Shown here piece after piece: positions 15,802-53,325 of a stretch of 64,000 nt of DNA. Position numbers and translations under genes: made by a program. The first letter of the stretch is position 1; each line of letters opens with the position of its first letter. This stretch comes from Pseudanabaena sp. PCC 7367 (GTDB lineage: Bacteria; Cyanobacteriota; Cyanobacteriia; Pseudanabaenales; Pseudanabaenaceae): the NCBI RefSeq assembly GCF_000317065.1, contig NC_019701.1, positions 3,606,001 to 3,670,000 of the forward strand. The letters run 5' to 3'. A model generated the notes under the pieces. The model saw only the letters and a list, made by a program, of their open reading frames with translations. It was not told where the DNA came from and did not search any database.

Positions 15802-17943
15802 TTAGTCGGGTGGCAAAAGCATCCGGTCTTCGATCTGCTTCCAGGCATCAGTAGAGAGATAAATCGCAGAGTCTTTGCATTCAATCATTAGCTGATTAGC
15901 GTACAGATATCCCGCCAAAGCTTCTCTCTCTTCTTCAGAAAATTCTGATACTACTGTTGTAAGATGCAAAACTTTCTTTATTGTTTCATGAAGTTCATCA
16001 AGAAAGGAAGTTGCATTCTCGCTAATCCCATAAGTTTCTTGTAAATCAATTTGTTTTTCTAGTAGGTTAATGAAAGCGTATAGATTTATGCTTTCATTAA
16101 ATATATTGATCGATTCATATATTTTTGAAAGATCTTGAGCTGCTTTCAACGCTTCTGTTGCCCAACCGATCTTTATTGCAGTTGCAAGGTCATAAGAGTT
16201 TCTTGTATGCAGCTCAAGATCTGTTCCAAGGCCACACATGCTTGCAAGGAGGCTGGCACTCATAATGTCTATTAGGGTAGTCTGAGTATGACCTGGATTG
16301 ATTATATTAACTCGTGAAAGATCAGTATGAAGTGCAAAAAGGATAGCAGCAGATCTTTTAGCATTAGCATTGCATTTTCCTCGAGATCCCCTAGTGACCT
16401 TTTCCGACCAGACGAGTAGCTTTTGTAGTTTTGGCATATCTTGAGCAAACTTTTGTATTTGCTTTTCCATTGCTAGCAATAGTAAATCTGCTCCCTCCTC
16501 CATTAATCCTGCAACTAGTAAAAAAATTTCTCGCCATTTCCTATCGACAAAATGTTCGGTCAAAAGAATCTCTATCAAACGATGTGATTCAACATATTTT
16601 GCAACTAGATATTCCTGAAAGGTTAAATGAGAGAAAGAATAAGCATTACGCGCTCTCTCAACTAAAATTCCTTGCTGTACTTCAATTGCTTTTAACGCGC
16701 TTTCCCCATCAAGATCTTGGGGAGCATTTAAGTTACCAGCAAGAAAATGCTCGATTTGCTCAACAACCCAATTCTTGCTGAAAAATAACTCGTCAACACT
16801 AAAACTTTCGTAAGCTATCTTAGATAGCAAAATAAGCTCTTGCTTAGCAGTAAAATGCTTATAAACACTGAGCTTTAAACGTTTTCCAGCAGCCCACTCA
16901 CGTAATAAAACGTCAAGCGCCTCTCCATAAAGCTCAGCTCTTTGTTTAGGCAGTTCTGTATATTTGCCATAGACCACACATAGCAGAGTTAATAAAAGAG
17001 GAGTTTGAGCAAGATCAAGGGTAGATTTGTATGAATCTTGTTTTAGTAATTTCCAGCAATCTTCTCCTACTTCTGGCTCGGACTTAAACCAATTCCCAAT
17101 AAAATCCCTTATTTGTGGCTCATCGAACTCAGCCATTACCACATCAGTGAATCGCTCAAAGCCACCTTTATATGCAGCAATTCGACAAGAAGCAATAAAT
17201 CGATTCTGGTCATAGGCAATAATTAGATCTTGAATCTGCTGAATCACGAAATCTTCATTCTCTTTCGGGACTTCATCTAGCCCATCTAATAAAACTAACA
17301 ACTTGCCAGCCTCTAATGCATACTTAGTAATAATTTCTGGATTTGGAAAGCCACAAATTCTAAATTCATTAGCAATAAAATCCTCAATGCTTTTATCCTG
17401 GGTTTTAAACTGCTTCAACTCCAGAAAAACTGGGATTAAAATATGTTCATAGCTACCCTGCTCTTGTTTAAGTGCCTCAAGCCCAACCTTGCGTAAAAAA
17501 GTAGATTTACCAATTCCAGGCGCACCAAGAACTAATAAGCGTTGCTGCTCGTTTGCAACTTCGAGCCCTGGTCTGGTTTCTGTCTCTTCAAACCGAAATT
17601 GACGCTTACCACTCTCTCGAAATAGCTTTTGCAAACCATCCGGTGATTCAAAATAATTTTGTAAGTCCGATCTCCTTAGTAGCCTTACCCCTGTATATAC
17701 CTCATCCAGAGAGATGGGCTGATCCATCCGCACACAGGCAACCTTCAATGAACCGTGGCGATCATCATATTTACGAATGTAAGTTTCAAATTGCCTTGCA
17801 AAAACCTTGTCAGGACTATCCGTAAGATCTATATTGAAGCGCTTTAAAGCTTCTTCACCATAATTTGCAATTACATTTGTGATCAACTTGGACAAACCAC
17901 CTACGGCAGCCGTAGTAAGGATAGCGGTAGAAATCGGTTCCAT
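15802..17943 (-). CDS. NACHT-domain NTPase (STAND family), possible anti-phage or signalling protein
   Basis: About 713 residues. The N-terminal 120 residues are a helical region with a hydrophobic start (MEPISTAILTTAAVGGLSKLI) and the element RHGSLKVACVRMDQPISLDEVYTGV, typical of cyanobacterial NACHT proteins. The NTPase has Walker A GAPGIGKST and Walker B LVLLDGLDEV, followed by the helical HLTFQEYLVAKYV element. The C-terminal 250 residues are helical, without WD40, TPR or LRR repeats I can see. Bacterial NACHT proteins can act in phage defence; that role is inference. ATG 17943 is preferred over GTG 17958. Base composition is AT-rich and the gene lacks GCGATCGC, unlike priA and the kinase beside it, which suggests transfer. 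Confidence 0.88.
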   Translation of the reverse strand: MEPISTAILTTAAVGGLSKLITNVIANYGEEALKRFNIDLTDSPDKVFARQFETYIRKYDDRHGSLKVACVRMDQPISLDEVYTGVRLLRRSDLQNYFESPDGLQKLFRESGKRQFRFEETETRPGLEVANEQQRLLVLGAPGIGKSTFLRKVGLEALKQEQGSYEHILIPVFLELKQFKTQDKSIEDFIANEFRICGFPNPEIITKYALEAGKLLVLLDGLDEVPKENEDFVIQQIQDLIIAYDQNRFIASCRIAAYKGGFERFTDVVMAEFDEPQIRDFIGNWFKSEPEVGEDCWKLLKQDSYKSTLDLAQTPLLLTLLCVVYGKYTELPKQRAELYGEALDVLLREWAAGKRLKLSVYKHFTAKQELILLSKIAYESFSVDELFFSKNWVVEQIEHFLAGNLNAPQDLDGESALKAIEVQQGILVERARNAYSFSHLTFQEYLVAKYVESHRLIEILLTEHFVDRKWREIFLLVAGLMEEGADLLLLAMEKQIQKFAQDMPKLQKLLVWSEKVTRGSRGKCNANAKRSAAILFALHTDLSRVNIINPGHTQTTLIDIMSASLLASMCGLGTDLELHTRNSYDLATAIKIGWATEALKAAQDLSKIYESINIFNESINLYAFINLLEKQIDLQETYGISENATSFLDELHETIKKVLHLTTVVSEFSEEEREALAGYLYANQLMIECKDSAIYLSTDAWKQIEDRMLLPPD

Positions 17944-18015
17944 AAATAAACCCAGCACAAATACAGATAACTACCAGAATAAAGCCAAAACCCATCCCGA
18001 AACCAAAAAACAACC

Positions 18016-42832: not shown

Positions 42833-44596
42833 CTAAACCTCCATACATTTACCCGCATGGAGCAATCGTCTAAATTCTTCGGCTGGCACAGGGCGACTGA
42901 AGATATAGCCTTGAATCGCGTTGCAGCTATTCTGTTTGAGGATATTTAACTCTGGCATGGTTTCTACCCCTTCCGCGATCACATGTAGGTTAAGGCTATG
43001 CGCCATTTGAATAATCGCCTTAGCGATCGCCCTATTTTCTTGATCATGGGCCAGATCATGAATAAAACAACGATCGATTTTAAGCGTATCAAACGGAAAC
43101 TGTTTTAGATAACTCAATGAAGAATAGCCCGTACCAAAGTCGTCAATCGAGATCTGAATGCCGATCGACTTAAGTTCATGCATTTTGGCAATGCTACCGC
43201 TAATGTCATCAATCAAACTACTTTCGGTAACCTCGATCTCCAAGAGACTAGGTTCTAATTCACATTCTTCAACAATGCGAACAATGCGGGAGCTGAGGTC
43301 TTCTTGCTTAAACTGCCGCGCCGAGAGGTTAACAGAAATCTGGGGACGATAGAATGCCTCAGGTGAGAAAGGGCTATAGGTTGAATTAGGAATTGAGATT
43401 TTCTGCCAGGTTTTGGCCTGTCGGCAAGCTTCACGAATCACCCATTCACCGATCGTCTCGATCGCCCCACTCTCTTCAGCAAGCGGAATAAATTTAGCCG
43501 GAGAGATAATTCCATACTTGGGGTGGTACCAGCGCAAGAGTGCTTCAGCACCAATAATTTGCCCCGTTACTAAGCTGATTTGGGGTTGAAAATAAAGCTG
43601 GAACTCATCCCGATCGAGGGCATGAAACAAGTGTGACTGTAGTTCCAGTTGCTCCGTAAGCCCTTCGCCTAGCTTAGGATTATAGAAATAATAGAGACTG
43701 TCATCTTTCTGTTTGACATTATTCTGAGCGGTGGCGGCATTACGAATCAAAGTATCCATATCAACACCATGCTGAGGATGGAAAGCAACGCCAATGCTAG
43801 CAGTAATGCGGACTTCATGATTGTCAACACAGAAGGGTTTAGCGATCTCTTTGGCTATGCATTGAGCCACATTATGGGTCTCGGCTTTAGCATCAACGGC
43901 GGCCAGAATAACTACAAAGTCATCTTTATCAAGCTTGGCTACGACATCATGATCATCAACGCAATCGAGAATCCGCTCGGTAACCTCTTTTAAAATACGA
44001 TCGCTGTGATCCTGGCCAAAATTTTCGCTAATGCGTCTGAAGCGATCGAGGCTAACCATCAAAATGGGCACGATTGTTGCATTGGGCTCCGATTCATCTA
44101 GAACCAAAGCCAGCTTTTCCCTGAGCATCAGGCGATTGGGTAAGCCAGTAATATTGTCGTAATAGAGTACATAATCAAGCTGCTCCTTAATTCTGCGCAG
44201 ATCGCTGGCATAAATTGCCGCCATCGCTAATTTTCGATCGAGGCGGGTACGCACCGCTCGCAGTAGATCATTACTTCTGACTGGCTTAGCCAGATAATCA
44301 TCAGCACCACCATCCATGCCCTGGCGCACATCTTTGGTCGTTGATTTAGCCGTGAGGAAAATAAAAGGAGTTAAGGCCAGGTCGGGCACCTTGCGCAGTC
44401 GCGCCAACACCTCATGGCCATCCAATCCGGGCATCATCACATCACAAAGAATTAGATCTGGCTGGAAAGCTTGAGCTAATTTCAAGCCCTGGATACCATC
44501 ACCTGCACCTACTACCTCATAATCCTCAAACTCTAATATTTCTACAATGCCTTCACGGATAAGCTCATCATCTTCGATCACTAGTATTTTATGCAT
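42833..44596 (-). CDS. Response regulator with degenerate GGDEF and intact EAL domains
   Basis: 587 residues. REC domain: acidic pocket IEDDE, phospho-acceptor Asp52 in ILCDVMMPG, Lys in LAKPVRS. GGDEF domain (about 140-300): the signature is KLDKDDF, so the diguanylate cyclase motif is lost. EAL domain (about 320-580): AEALLRW, NLSARQF, EVTESSLID, DDFGTGYSSLSYLKQFPFDTLKID and AEGVET are intact, which predicts c-di-GMP phosphodiesterase activity controlled by phosphorylation. The partner kinase is not adjacent; a hybrid-photoreceptor kinase lies 7 kb away. The gene has a long divergent spacer upstream. Confidence 0.93.
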   Translation of the reverse strand: MHKILVIEDDELIREGIVEILEFEDYEVVGAGDGIQGLKLAQAFQPDLILCDVMMPGLDGHEVLARLRKVPDLALTPFIFLTAKSTTKDVRQGMDGGADDYLAKPVRSNDLLRAVRTRLDRKLAMAAIYASDLRRIKEQLDYVLYYDNITGLPNRLMLREKLALVLDESEPNATIVPILMVSLDRFRRISENFGQDHSDRILKEVTERILDCVDDHDVVAKLDKDDFVVILAAVDAKAETHNVAQCIAKEIAKPFCVDNHEVRITASIGVAFHPQHGVDMDTLIRNAATAQNNVKQKDDSLYYFYNPKLGEGLTEQLELQSHLFHALDRDEFQLYFQPQISLVTGQIIGAEALLRWYHPKYGIISPAKFIPLAEESGAIETIGEWVIREACRQAKTWQKISIPNSTYSPFSPEAFYRPQISVNLSARQFKQEDLSSRIVRIVEECELEPSLLEIEVTESSLIDDISGSIAKMHELKSIGIQISIDDFGTGYSSLSYLKQFPFDTLKIDRCFIHDLAHDQENRAIAKAIIQMAHSLNLHVIAEGVETMPELNILKQNSCNAIQGYIFSRPVPAEEFRRLLHAGKCMEV

Positions 44597-51198: not shown

Positions 51199-53325
51199 TT
51201 AGTCTTCGCTTAGTGTTGCTGGATCTTCTGGTTGGATTGGCAACTGGCATGGCAGCTTGACCTGGAAAAAGCCCTTCTTGCCTGGTTCGCTGATGTAGTG
51301 AATCTCGCCACAATGGCTATTTACAACAATGTCATGGCAAATTGAGAGCCCCAGTCCGCGACCAGAACCGACTGGTTTGGTGGTGAAAAATGGGTCAAAG
51401 ATGCGATCGCGGAGATCTGCCGGTACACCAGCGCCAGAGTCCTTGATTTTGATTAATACATGCTCGCGTAGATGCTCATTCAGCCCAGAATTAGTTTCTG
51501 TTGGGTCTTCCTGCACCGCTTTGGTTTCGATCGTGATTGAGCCAAAACTGCCGATCGCATCAAAGGCATTTTCCAGCAGGTTATAAAACACTTGATTTAG
51601 TTGGGCGGGGTAGCCTTCCACCTGGGCGGATTTGCCATATTTCTTGACAATCACCATATCGGGCAATAATCGACTATTCAGGATCGCCAGACTACTATCC
51701 AGACTGGCATTAAGCTCAACCTGGCAAAATTCAGCGCGATTCAAGTTGGCAAAGGTGCGGAAAGTGCCGACAATCTCTCTGATTCTGGTGCTTCCCTCCT
51801 GCATTGATTTCAGGATTTTGGGAAAGTCCCGGCAAACATAGTTAAGATCGACAGCTTCGTTAATCCTGGCCACAACTTGCGGCACATCATCATAGGACGT
51901 GGTGTAGGCATCTAGTGCCTGGGTGAGGTTCGCCACATAGTTTTGGGCATAGGGAATATTGGCATAGACAAAGTTATTGGCATTATTGATCTCATGGGCT
52001 AGGCCAGCCGCCATTTGTCCCAGGCTTTGCATTTTTTCCCGTTGGATAATTTGCATTTGGGTGTTGCGCAACTGCGCGATCGCTAGCTTTAATTGCTCTG
52101 CCTGGTCTTGATATCGCTGTGCTGAAGCCTGTACCTCGCCATATAGCTCCGCCTGCTGGATGGCGATCGCCACTTGATCTCCCAATTGCTGTAGGGTTTC
52201 GATTTCGGTATTCAGCCATTCTCTGGGGCTACTGCATTCGTGGGCAATCAACAACCCCCAGAGCCGATCGCCAATATTGATCGGTACGACTAGATTGGCC
52301 TTAACTTGCAGGTCTGCCAGAAAATCAATGTGACATTGATCAAGCTCTGAAGTATGAATATCATTAATTGCCTTAATCCGGCCTTTTTGATATTGCTGGG
52401 CGCGCTCCGGTGTAAAGCAAGTATCTGAGACATATTTGTCCATTACCGATTGCCAGGGCGATCGCACATCTTCAACCACCACCTTGCCATCCCACTCCGT
52501 CTGGAATTGATAGATCACGACCCGATCGGTGTCCAGCAATTTGCGGATCTCACGGACTACGGTTTTTTGAATTTCACTGAGGTTCAATGAGCTGCGGATT
52601 TGATTACTAACCAGGCGCAAAATTGATTCTCGTTCAGCGGTATGCCTGACCGTGGCAAACAATTCTGCCTGTTGAATGGCGATCGCCATCTGGTCAGCCA
52701 GTTGCACCAGTAATTTTTGCTCCCATTCCTGCCAAACCCGCTCATCTCGACATTCATGGGCGAGCAGCAATCCCCATAATTGATCTTTAATAATAATTGG
52801 CACTACCAGATTGGCTCTGACTTGCAGCGCCTTCAGGAAATTGGCATGACATTCATCTAAGCCAGGATCGGTTTGAATATCTGCGATCGCCCTGACTCGA
52901 CCTTCTACATATAACTGCCCATATTCTCCGGCAAAGCAATTGTCTGCACCCATCTCACCCAAGATCGAAGACCAGGGCTCGATCACCTCTTCGACTACTA
53001 CCTGGCCACGCCAACCTTCAACGAAGTGATAGATCACCACTCGATCGGTGTCAAGCAGTTCCCGCACCTCCCGCACTGCGGTTTGCAAAATCGAGTCCAG
53101 GTTCAATGAGCTACGAATCTGGTTGCCCACCAATCGCAATAATGACTCTCGCTCTGCCTGTCGTTGGGTTTTTTCGTAGAGATTGGCCTGTTTACGAGCC
53201 GCCTCGATCAGGGCTTGCTGTTCTTCGATCGATAATGAGCCTCGTGATGGTGCAGTTGGTGTGGTTTCAGCAGCGAGAGATGCGGTATTTTGATCGCGGT
53301 TTCTGGTATTCATTGGCAGTTGCAA
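51199..53325 (-). CDS. Histidine kinase with two tandem DXCF-type cyanobacteriochrome GAF domains
   Basis: 708 residues. An N-terminal helical linker leads to GAF1 (about 60-225) and GAF2 (about 233-395), then a helical linker, dimerisation helices with His444 in GLAHEINNANNF, and the ATPase domain (NLLENAFDAIG, GAGVPADLRDRIFDPFFTTK, GRGLGLS). Both GAFs have a DXCF motif (DNCF, Cys130; DTCF, Cys303) and a CH motif 28-29 residues later (Cys159, Cys331; ECHANFLKALQVRANLVVPI-type context). These are the two chromophore-linking cysteines of blue/green-type cyanobacteriochromes. Bilin binding is inferred. It has no adjacent response regulator. Confidence 0.9.
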   Translation of the reverse strand: MQLPMNTRNRDQNTASLAAETTPTAPSRGSLSIEEQQALIEAARKQANLYEKTQRQAERESLLRLVGNQIRSSLNLDSILQTAVREVRELLDTDRVVIYHFVEGWRGQVVVEEVIEPWSSILGEMGADNCFAGEYGQLYVEGRVRAIADIQTDPGLDECHANFLKALQVRANLVVPIIIKDQLWGLLLAHECRDERVWQEWEQKLLVQLADQMAIAIQQAELFATVRHTAERESILRLVSNQIRSSLNLSEIQKTVVREIRKLLDTDRVVIYQFQTEWDGKVVVEDVRSPWQSVMDKYVSDTCFTPERAQQYQKGRIKAINDIHTSELDQCHIDFLADLQVKANLVVPINIGDRLWGLLIAHECSSPREWLNTEIETLQQLGDQVAIAIQQAELYGEVQASAQRYQDQAEQLKLAIAQLRNTQMQIIQREKMQSLGQMAAGLAHEINNANNFVYANIPYAQNYVANLTQALDAYTTSYDDVPQVVARINEAVDLNYVCRDFPKILKSMQEGSTRIREIVGTFRTFANLNRAEFCQVELNASLDSSLAILNSRLLPDMVIVKKYGKSAQVEGYPAQLNQVFYNLLENAFDAIGSFGSITIETKAVQEDPTETNSGLNEHLREHVLIKIKDSGAGVPADLRDRIFDPFFTTKPVGSGRGLGLSICHDIVVNSHCGEIHYISEPGKKGFFQVKLPCQLPIQPEDPATLSED

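Follow-up and report, generated by a model that had tools for sequence, protein, structure and literature searches.

A single open reading frame, 51199-53325 (-), within the 64-kb window (the whole stretch of DNA analysed here) encodes a protein that is, as judged from its sequence and structural models, a DXCF cyanobacteriochrome kinase. Two tandem GAF domains, g1 and g2, each carry both cysteine motifs, as an earlier sequence-only reading had claimed and as Pfam, alignment with TePixJ and the pocket residues now indicate. The two-GAF DXCF kinase is genuine and probably functional. Our preferred explanation, to which we assign a probability of roughly 0.7, is that of a cytosolic kinase in which two PCB/PVB blue/green GAFs in series control His440.

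The likelier start of the gene is an in-frame ATG at 53313, which yields a 704-aa protein ending at the stop codon 51199-51201; the listed TTG start lies four codons upstream. The four cysteines previously given as Cys130, Cys159, Cys303 and Cys331 were the right residues, but with the ATG start their numbers shift by -4, to Cys126, Cys155, Cys299 and Cys327. Promoter and terminator scans gave no signal above shuffles. The features are collected in Table 1.

Table 1. Features of the two-GAF kinase gene, and the nearest receiver gene, in window coordinates
Feature	Position	Strand	Basis
704-aa soluble cyanobacteriochrome histidine kinase gene	51199..53313	-	ORF, numbering, Pfam (GAF x2 + HATPase_c)
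GAF domain g1, aa 50-222; D124-N-C126-F, C155-H156, Y135, R139, N168	52648..53166	-	alignments, AF2 model
GAF domain g2, aa 223-396; D297-T-C299-F, C327-H328, Y308, R312, N340, Arg304	52126..52647	-	alignments, full-length model
Cys126 codon, DXCF second Cys of g1, equivalent to TePixJ C494	52936..52938	-	alignment
Cys155 codon, canonical Cys of g1, equivalent to TePixJ C522	52849..52851	-	alignment
Cys299 codon, DXCF second Cys of g2	52417..52419	-	alignment
Cys327 codon, canonical Cys of g2	52333..52335	-	alignment
Coiled linker and dimerisation/phosphoacceptor helices, aa 397-525	51739..52125	-	kinase alignment, model
HATPase_c catalytic domain, N box NLLENA, G boxes DSGAG and GRGLGL	51247..51609	-	Pfam, motifs
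REC-GGDEF-EAL response regulator, nearest receiver gene in window, candidate partner by proximity only	42833..44596	-	Pfam

Pfam analysis of the kinase protein returned two GAF domains and one HATPase_c domain, and otherwise only related GAF models; no PAS domain was found, and no HisKA match was reported. Pfam also detected no MCPsignal domain, which sets the protein apart from PixJ-type phototaxis receptors with their C-terminal MCP domain. No membrane segment was found in the kinase, the top 19-residue hydrophobic stretch (mean Kyte-Doolittle 1.43) being a GAF beta-strand region. Pfam and hydropathy thus agree with the earlier description of a soluble histidine kinase lacking PAS domains and membrane segments. 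The HATPase_c domain has the N and G boxes of a sensor histidine kinase. His440-Glu441 is invariant across 36 aligned kinases, and His440, which sits in GLAHEINN within helices of the model that correspond to the dimerisation helices, is the expected phosphoacceptor. In the full-length model, helices span residues 368-473 and 490-524, and long helices (196-241 and 368-473) connect GAF to GAF to kinase.

We then compared the two GAFs with the GAF domain of Thermosynechococcus TePixJ (3vv4, 4fof, 4glq). In phmmer alignments against PDB sequences, DNCF/ECH of g1 and DTCF/QCH of g2 fall on DPCF/C494 and CH/C522 of TePixJ. C494 and C522 are the two sites of thioether linkage to the bilin (PMC6955287), indicating that all four cysteines lie at chromophore-binding positions, which is what the proposed PixJ alignment had been meant to check. 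The match of the cysteines goes beyond chance, because the GAF chain of TePixJ (3vv4) was matched at 1.4e-32 by g1 and 1.6e-33 by g2, and because the homology spans the whole domain. Equivalents of TePixJ D492, H523 and N535, as well as Tyr/Arg at 503/507, are retained in both g1 and g2. By contrast, TePixJ Trp499 is replaced by Tyr131 in g1 and Arg304 in g2, Gln526 is replaced by Phe in both, and PixJ ends in an MCP domain where the present protein ends in a histidine kinase.

Structural modelling was consistent with these alignments. The AF2 model of g1, built from DXCF GAFs only, had a pLDDT of 89 and recovered CBCR/phytochrome GAF structures at Z 23-25, including 6oaq (Z 25.1) and AnPixJ (3w2z, Z 23.7); g2 in the full-length model matched TePixJ (4glq/3vv4) at Z 23. 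Each GAF has a predicted CBCR-type fold and a canonical Cys-His, with DXCF 29 residues before it in g1 and 28 in g2. In the phylogeny, both domains belong to a supported clade together with the DXCF GAFs of other kinases. The alignment has no insert before the motif and DXCF is intact, which speaks against an insert-Cys cyanobacteriochrome.

Bilin-synthesis genes are present in the genome: one for heme oxygenase and three for ferredoxin-dependent bilin reductases. Of the latter, two are adjacent (C1:305934-307447) on a smaller contig, a probable plasmid, and are perhaps pebA and pebB; the third is on the chromosome. Searches of plasmids found no near relative of the C1 bilin-reductase region, and only distant CBCR proteins. 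These genes also bear on whether the cysteines might serve redox or thiol sensing instead of light sensing. Second-Cys adducts of CBCRs are thiol-sensitive, and no light-linked operon partner was found for the kinase; against this, the bilin-pocket residues are complete, both GAFs are placed in the CBCR clade and the genome provides for bilin synthesis, making a thiol sensor very improbable.

Typical DXCF GAFs take up PCB and isomerise it to PVB, and they cycle between a blue dark state, in which the second Cys is attached to C10, and a green photoproduct without that adduct (PMC11284453). Given this chemistry and the bilin-synthesis genes, both GAFs would be expected to be blue/green or blue/teal and to act via a helical spine on His440. 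Alternatively, one or both may keep PCB and not be blue/green, g2 for example being red/blue or shifted, so that the kinase would compare two colour pairs. The dual-Cys GAF AM1_1186g2 is a precedent, as it retains PCB (red 641 nm / blue 416 nm) (PMC6628166); moreover, g1 and g2 are only 47-48% identical around the DXCF helix, and g2 carries Arg304. Since typical DXCF GAFs are PVB-bound and blue/green (PMC11284453), we consider retention of PCB possible but doubtful.

Arg304 occupies the position of TePixJ Trp499, which hydrogen-bonds the B-ring propionate of the bilin (PMC6955287). Among the 58 DXCF GAFs compared, this position was Tyr in 43, His in 9 and Arg in g2 alone; the set was picked by motif and similarity, and the rarity of Arg304 is stated for that set. 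The residue is a good target for mutation. It is conceivable, but quite unlikely in our estimate, that Arg304 confers a shifted or differently gated photocycle on g2, in which case the kinase would compare two distinct dual-Cys photocycles instead of receiving one blue/green signal twice. The same replacement of an aromatic residue, unique to g2, would fit an arrangement in which one GAF only is the photosensor and the other is structural or serves dimerisation with its motif residues kept. Synechocystis PixJ1 has two GAFs and carries a chromophore on the second only (PMC5812497), so two intact motifs need not equal two photosensors, and in the usual relative of the present kinase a single DXCF GAF comes after a degenerate one. 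However, all of D, C, F, Y, R, C, H and N are present at the pocket positions of both g1 and g2, while degenerate GAFs in the relatives lack the two cysteines altogether; a single photosensor is therefore unlikely.

Under our preferred explanation, with two blue/green photosensors, PCB would be attached in each GAF via the canonical Cys (C155, C327) and would probably be isomerised, largely to PVB. The DXCF Cys (C126, C299) would add reversibly to bilin C10, and this adduct cycle would switch each GAF between a 15Z dark state that absorbs blue and a 15E photoproduct at longer wavelength, green or teal. In a dimer, the sensors would lie in series along a helical spine, and both GAFs may alter the geometry of the His440-bearing helices, so that the kinase/phosphatase balance would track the blue-versus-green light ratio. 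If the sensors had slightly different colours or dark-reversion rates, the response could be broader or sharper. The phosphoryl group would pass to an unlinked response regulator.

The sequence-only reading had also suggested that the GAF pair could have arisen by internal duplication. Over the trimmed domain, g1 and g2 share 59% identity, and domains of other proteins reach up to 68% identity to g1 and up to 64% to g2. In a tree of 55 GAFs, in which the branches near g1 and g2 are weakly supported, g1 grouped with kinases of families f11 and f2, whereas g2 grouped with L144, L151, L153 and L158. A sister relation of g1 and g2 was rejected in this tree (AU p 0.0056); an earlier tree of 33 domains, with L008 as one very long branch (3.3), did not reject it (p 0.305). 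No segment clearly stood out as a recent conversion tract between the two domains. Because outside domains are closer to g1 and g2 and the sister relation fails in the larger tree, a recent internal duplication is unlikely, and the pair may have arisen either by an old duplication or by the joining of two domains. A tandem ancestor shared with the f2 proteins, pairing g1 with their GAF2 and g2 with their GAF3, was neither favoured nor rejected (AU p 0.218 and 0.153).

To place the kinase among its relatives, we searched overlapping samples of genomes, 38 from the same order, 386 from the phylum and 388 from the class, and read the best loci for domain layout. The commonest relative has a cysteine-less GAF, then one DXCF GAF, then the same kind of kinase. 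Two dual-Cys GAFs on one kinase, which had been thought unusual, proved not to be: the fetched loci held at least 11 other distinct kinases with 2-3 dual-Cys DXCF GAFs (L109-L112 of f2, L114 of f5, L144 and L145 of f55, and L073, L074, L077 and L078 of f7). This count was made after removal of duplicate loci, and Pfam was used to check HATPase_c in L073, L109, L114 and L144; since it relies on a motif pattern and on loci picked for similarity, it sets a minimum and gives no frequency. The nearest tandem proteins, L109 and L110, share 55-56% identity with the present kinase over both GAFs and keep all four cysteines; L109-L112, which come from another family, all have tandem GAFs with both cysteines, though full-length identity is only about 40%. 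In the Pseudanabaenaceae, the window's own family, we saw no kinase of the same layout, the best match (L127, 45%) having a single DXCF GAF. A scan of genome contigs with the whole protein returned only unrelated kinases. Two other GAF genes of the same genome were observed: L119:2065-2604 (+), which lies at C2:26064-26603, encodes a 180-aa lone DXCF GAF (DDCF/DCH) with no output domain and 48% identity to g1, and L118:1797-3863 (-) encodes a second two-GAF kinase with HisKA, in which a DHCF/NCH GAF is followed by an ECH GAF without DXCF.

The kinases with a degenerate GAF and a DXCF GAF (L100-L106, L136-L141) and the tandem L109-L112 share with the present protein the kind of kinase, the linkers and a DXCF GAF that adjoins the kinase; identity over the whole protein is about 43-46% for the single-DXCF forms. 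Both groups differ in their N-terminus, where a GAF without cysteines is either added or stands in its place. Multi-GAF PixJ-type proteins (for example L076, L082, L094) are frequent and similarly have 2 to 6 DXCF GAFs in a row, with two to five in those checked, but they carry an MCP signalling domain and, in L082 and L094, also Cache and HAMP. The dual-sensor histidine kinase represented by 6oap, 6oaq and 6ob8 also joins two sensors to one kinase, and no other structure matched g1 and g2 as well (Z 25-26); its CBCR GAF, however, reads DQYF in the alignment, not DXCF, and both its sensor arrangement and its light cycle differ from those of the present kinase.

Gene neighbourhood differs as well. 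In L100-L106, L109-L112 and L115 (families f2 and f11), coaX, which encodes a type III pantothenate kinase, nearly always lies divergent from the cyanobacteriochrome kinase gene; this held in 4/5 f2 and 8/8 f11 relatives examined. The window gene does not share this arrangement: coaX is at C2:742882-743697, away from it and with no kinase beside it. Elsewhere in the window, 15802-17958 (-) encodes a 718-aa NACHT + NCH2 STAND ATPase adjoining priA, possibly a defence protein.

No response regulator adjoins the kinase gene, in agreement with the earlier observation; the nearest receiver gene in the window, which encodes the REC-GGDEF-EAL protein, is 6.6 kb away on the same strand. There are about 90 receiver-type matches in the genome, too many to single out one partner. 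An output in c-di-GMP turnover, via a REC-GGDEF-EAL regulator such as this one, nevertheless has some parallels among relatives. Four genomes from the window's own family have a receiver protein directly after a DXCF-GAF kinase; Pfam was run on one of these proteins, L161, and showed REC-GGDEF-EAL. Six relatives have the kinase gene divergent from a neighbour that contains a GAF, and Pfam, applied to L138, showed this neighbour to be GAF-GGDEF. Yet the kinases paired with those family regulators are of another subtype, the regulators themselves are matched better by a gene at C2:3183855 (43%) than by the window gene (36%), and the many other receivers in the genome compete as partners. A c-di-GMP output is thus improbable, and 42833-44596 was set aside as the partner: nothing beyond proximity favours it, and the family regulators have a better counterpart elsewhere in the genome.

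Taken together with the relatives described above, the kinase is a common, already described sort of cyanobacterial photoreceptor and opens no new class. Being compact and soluble and having two dual-Cys GAFs, it could serve the study of serial photosensors on one kinase, and it may be of use as a blue/green optogenetic kinase.
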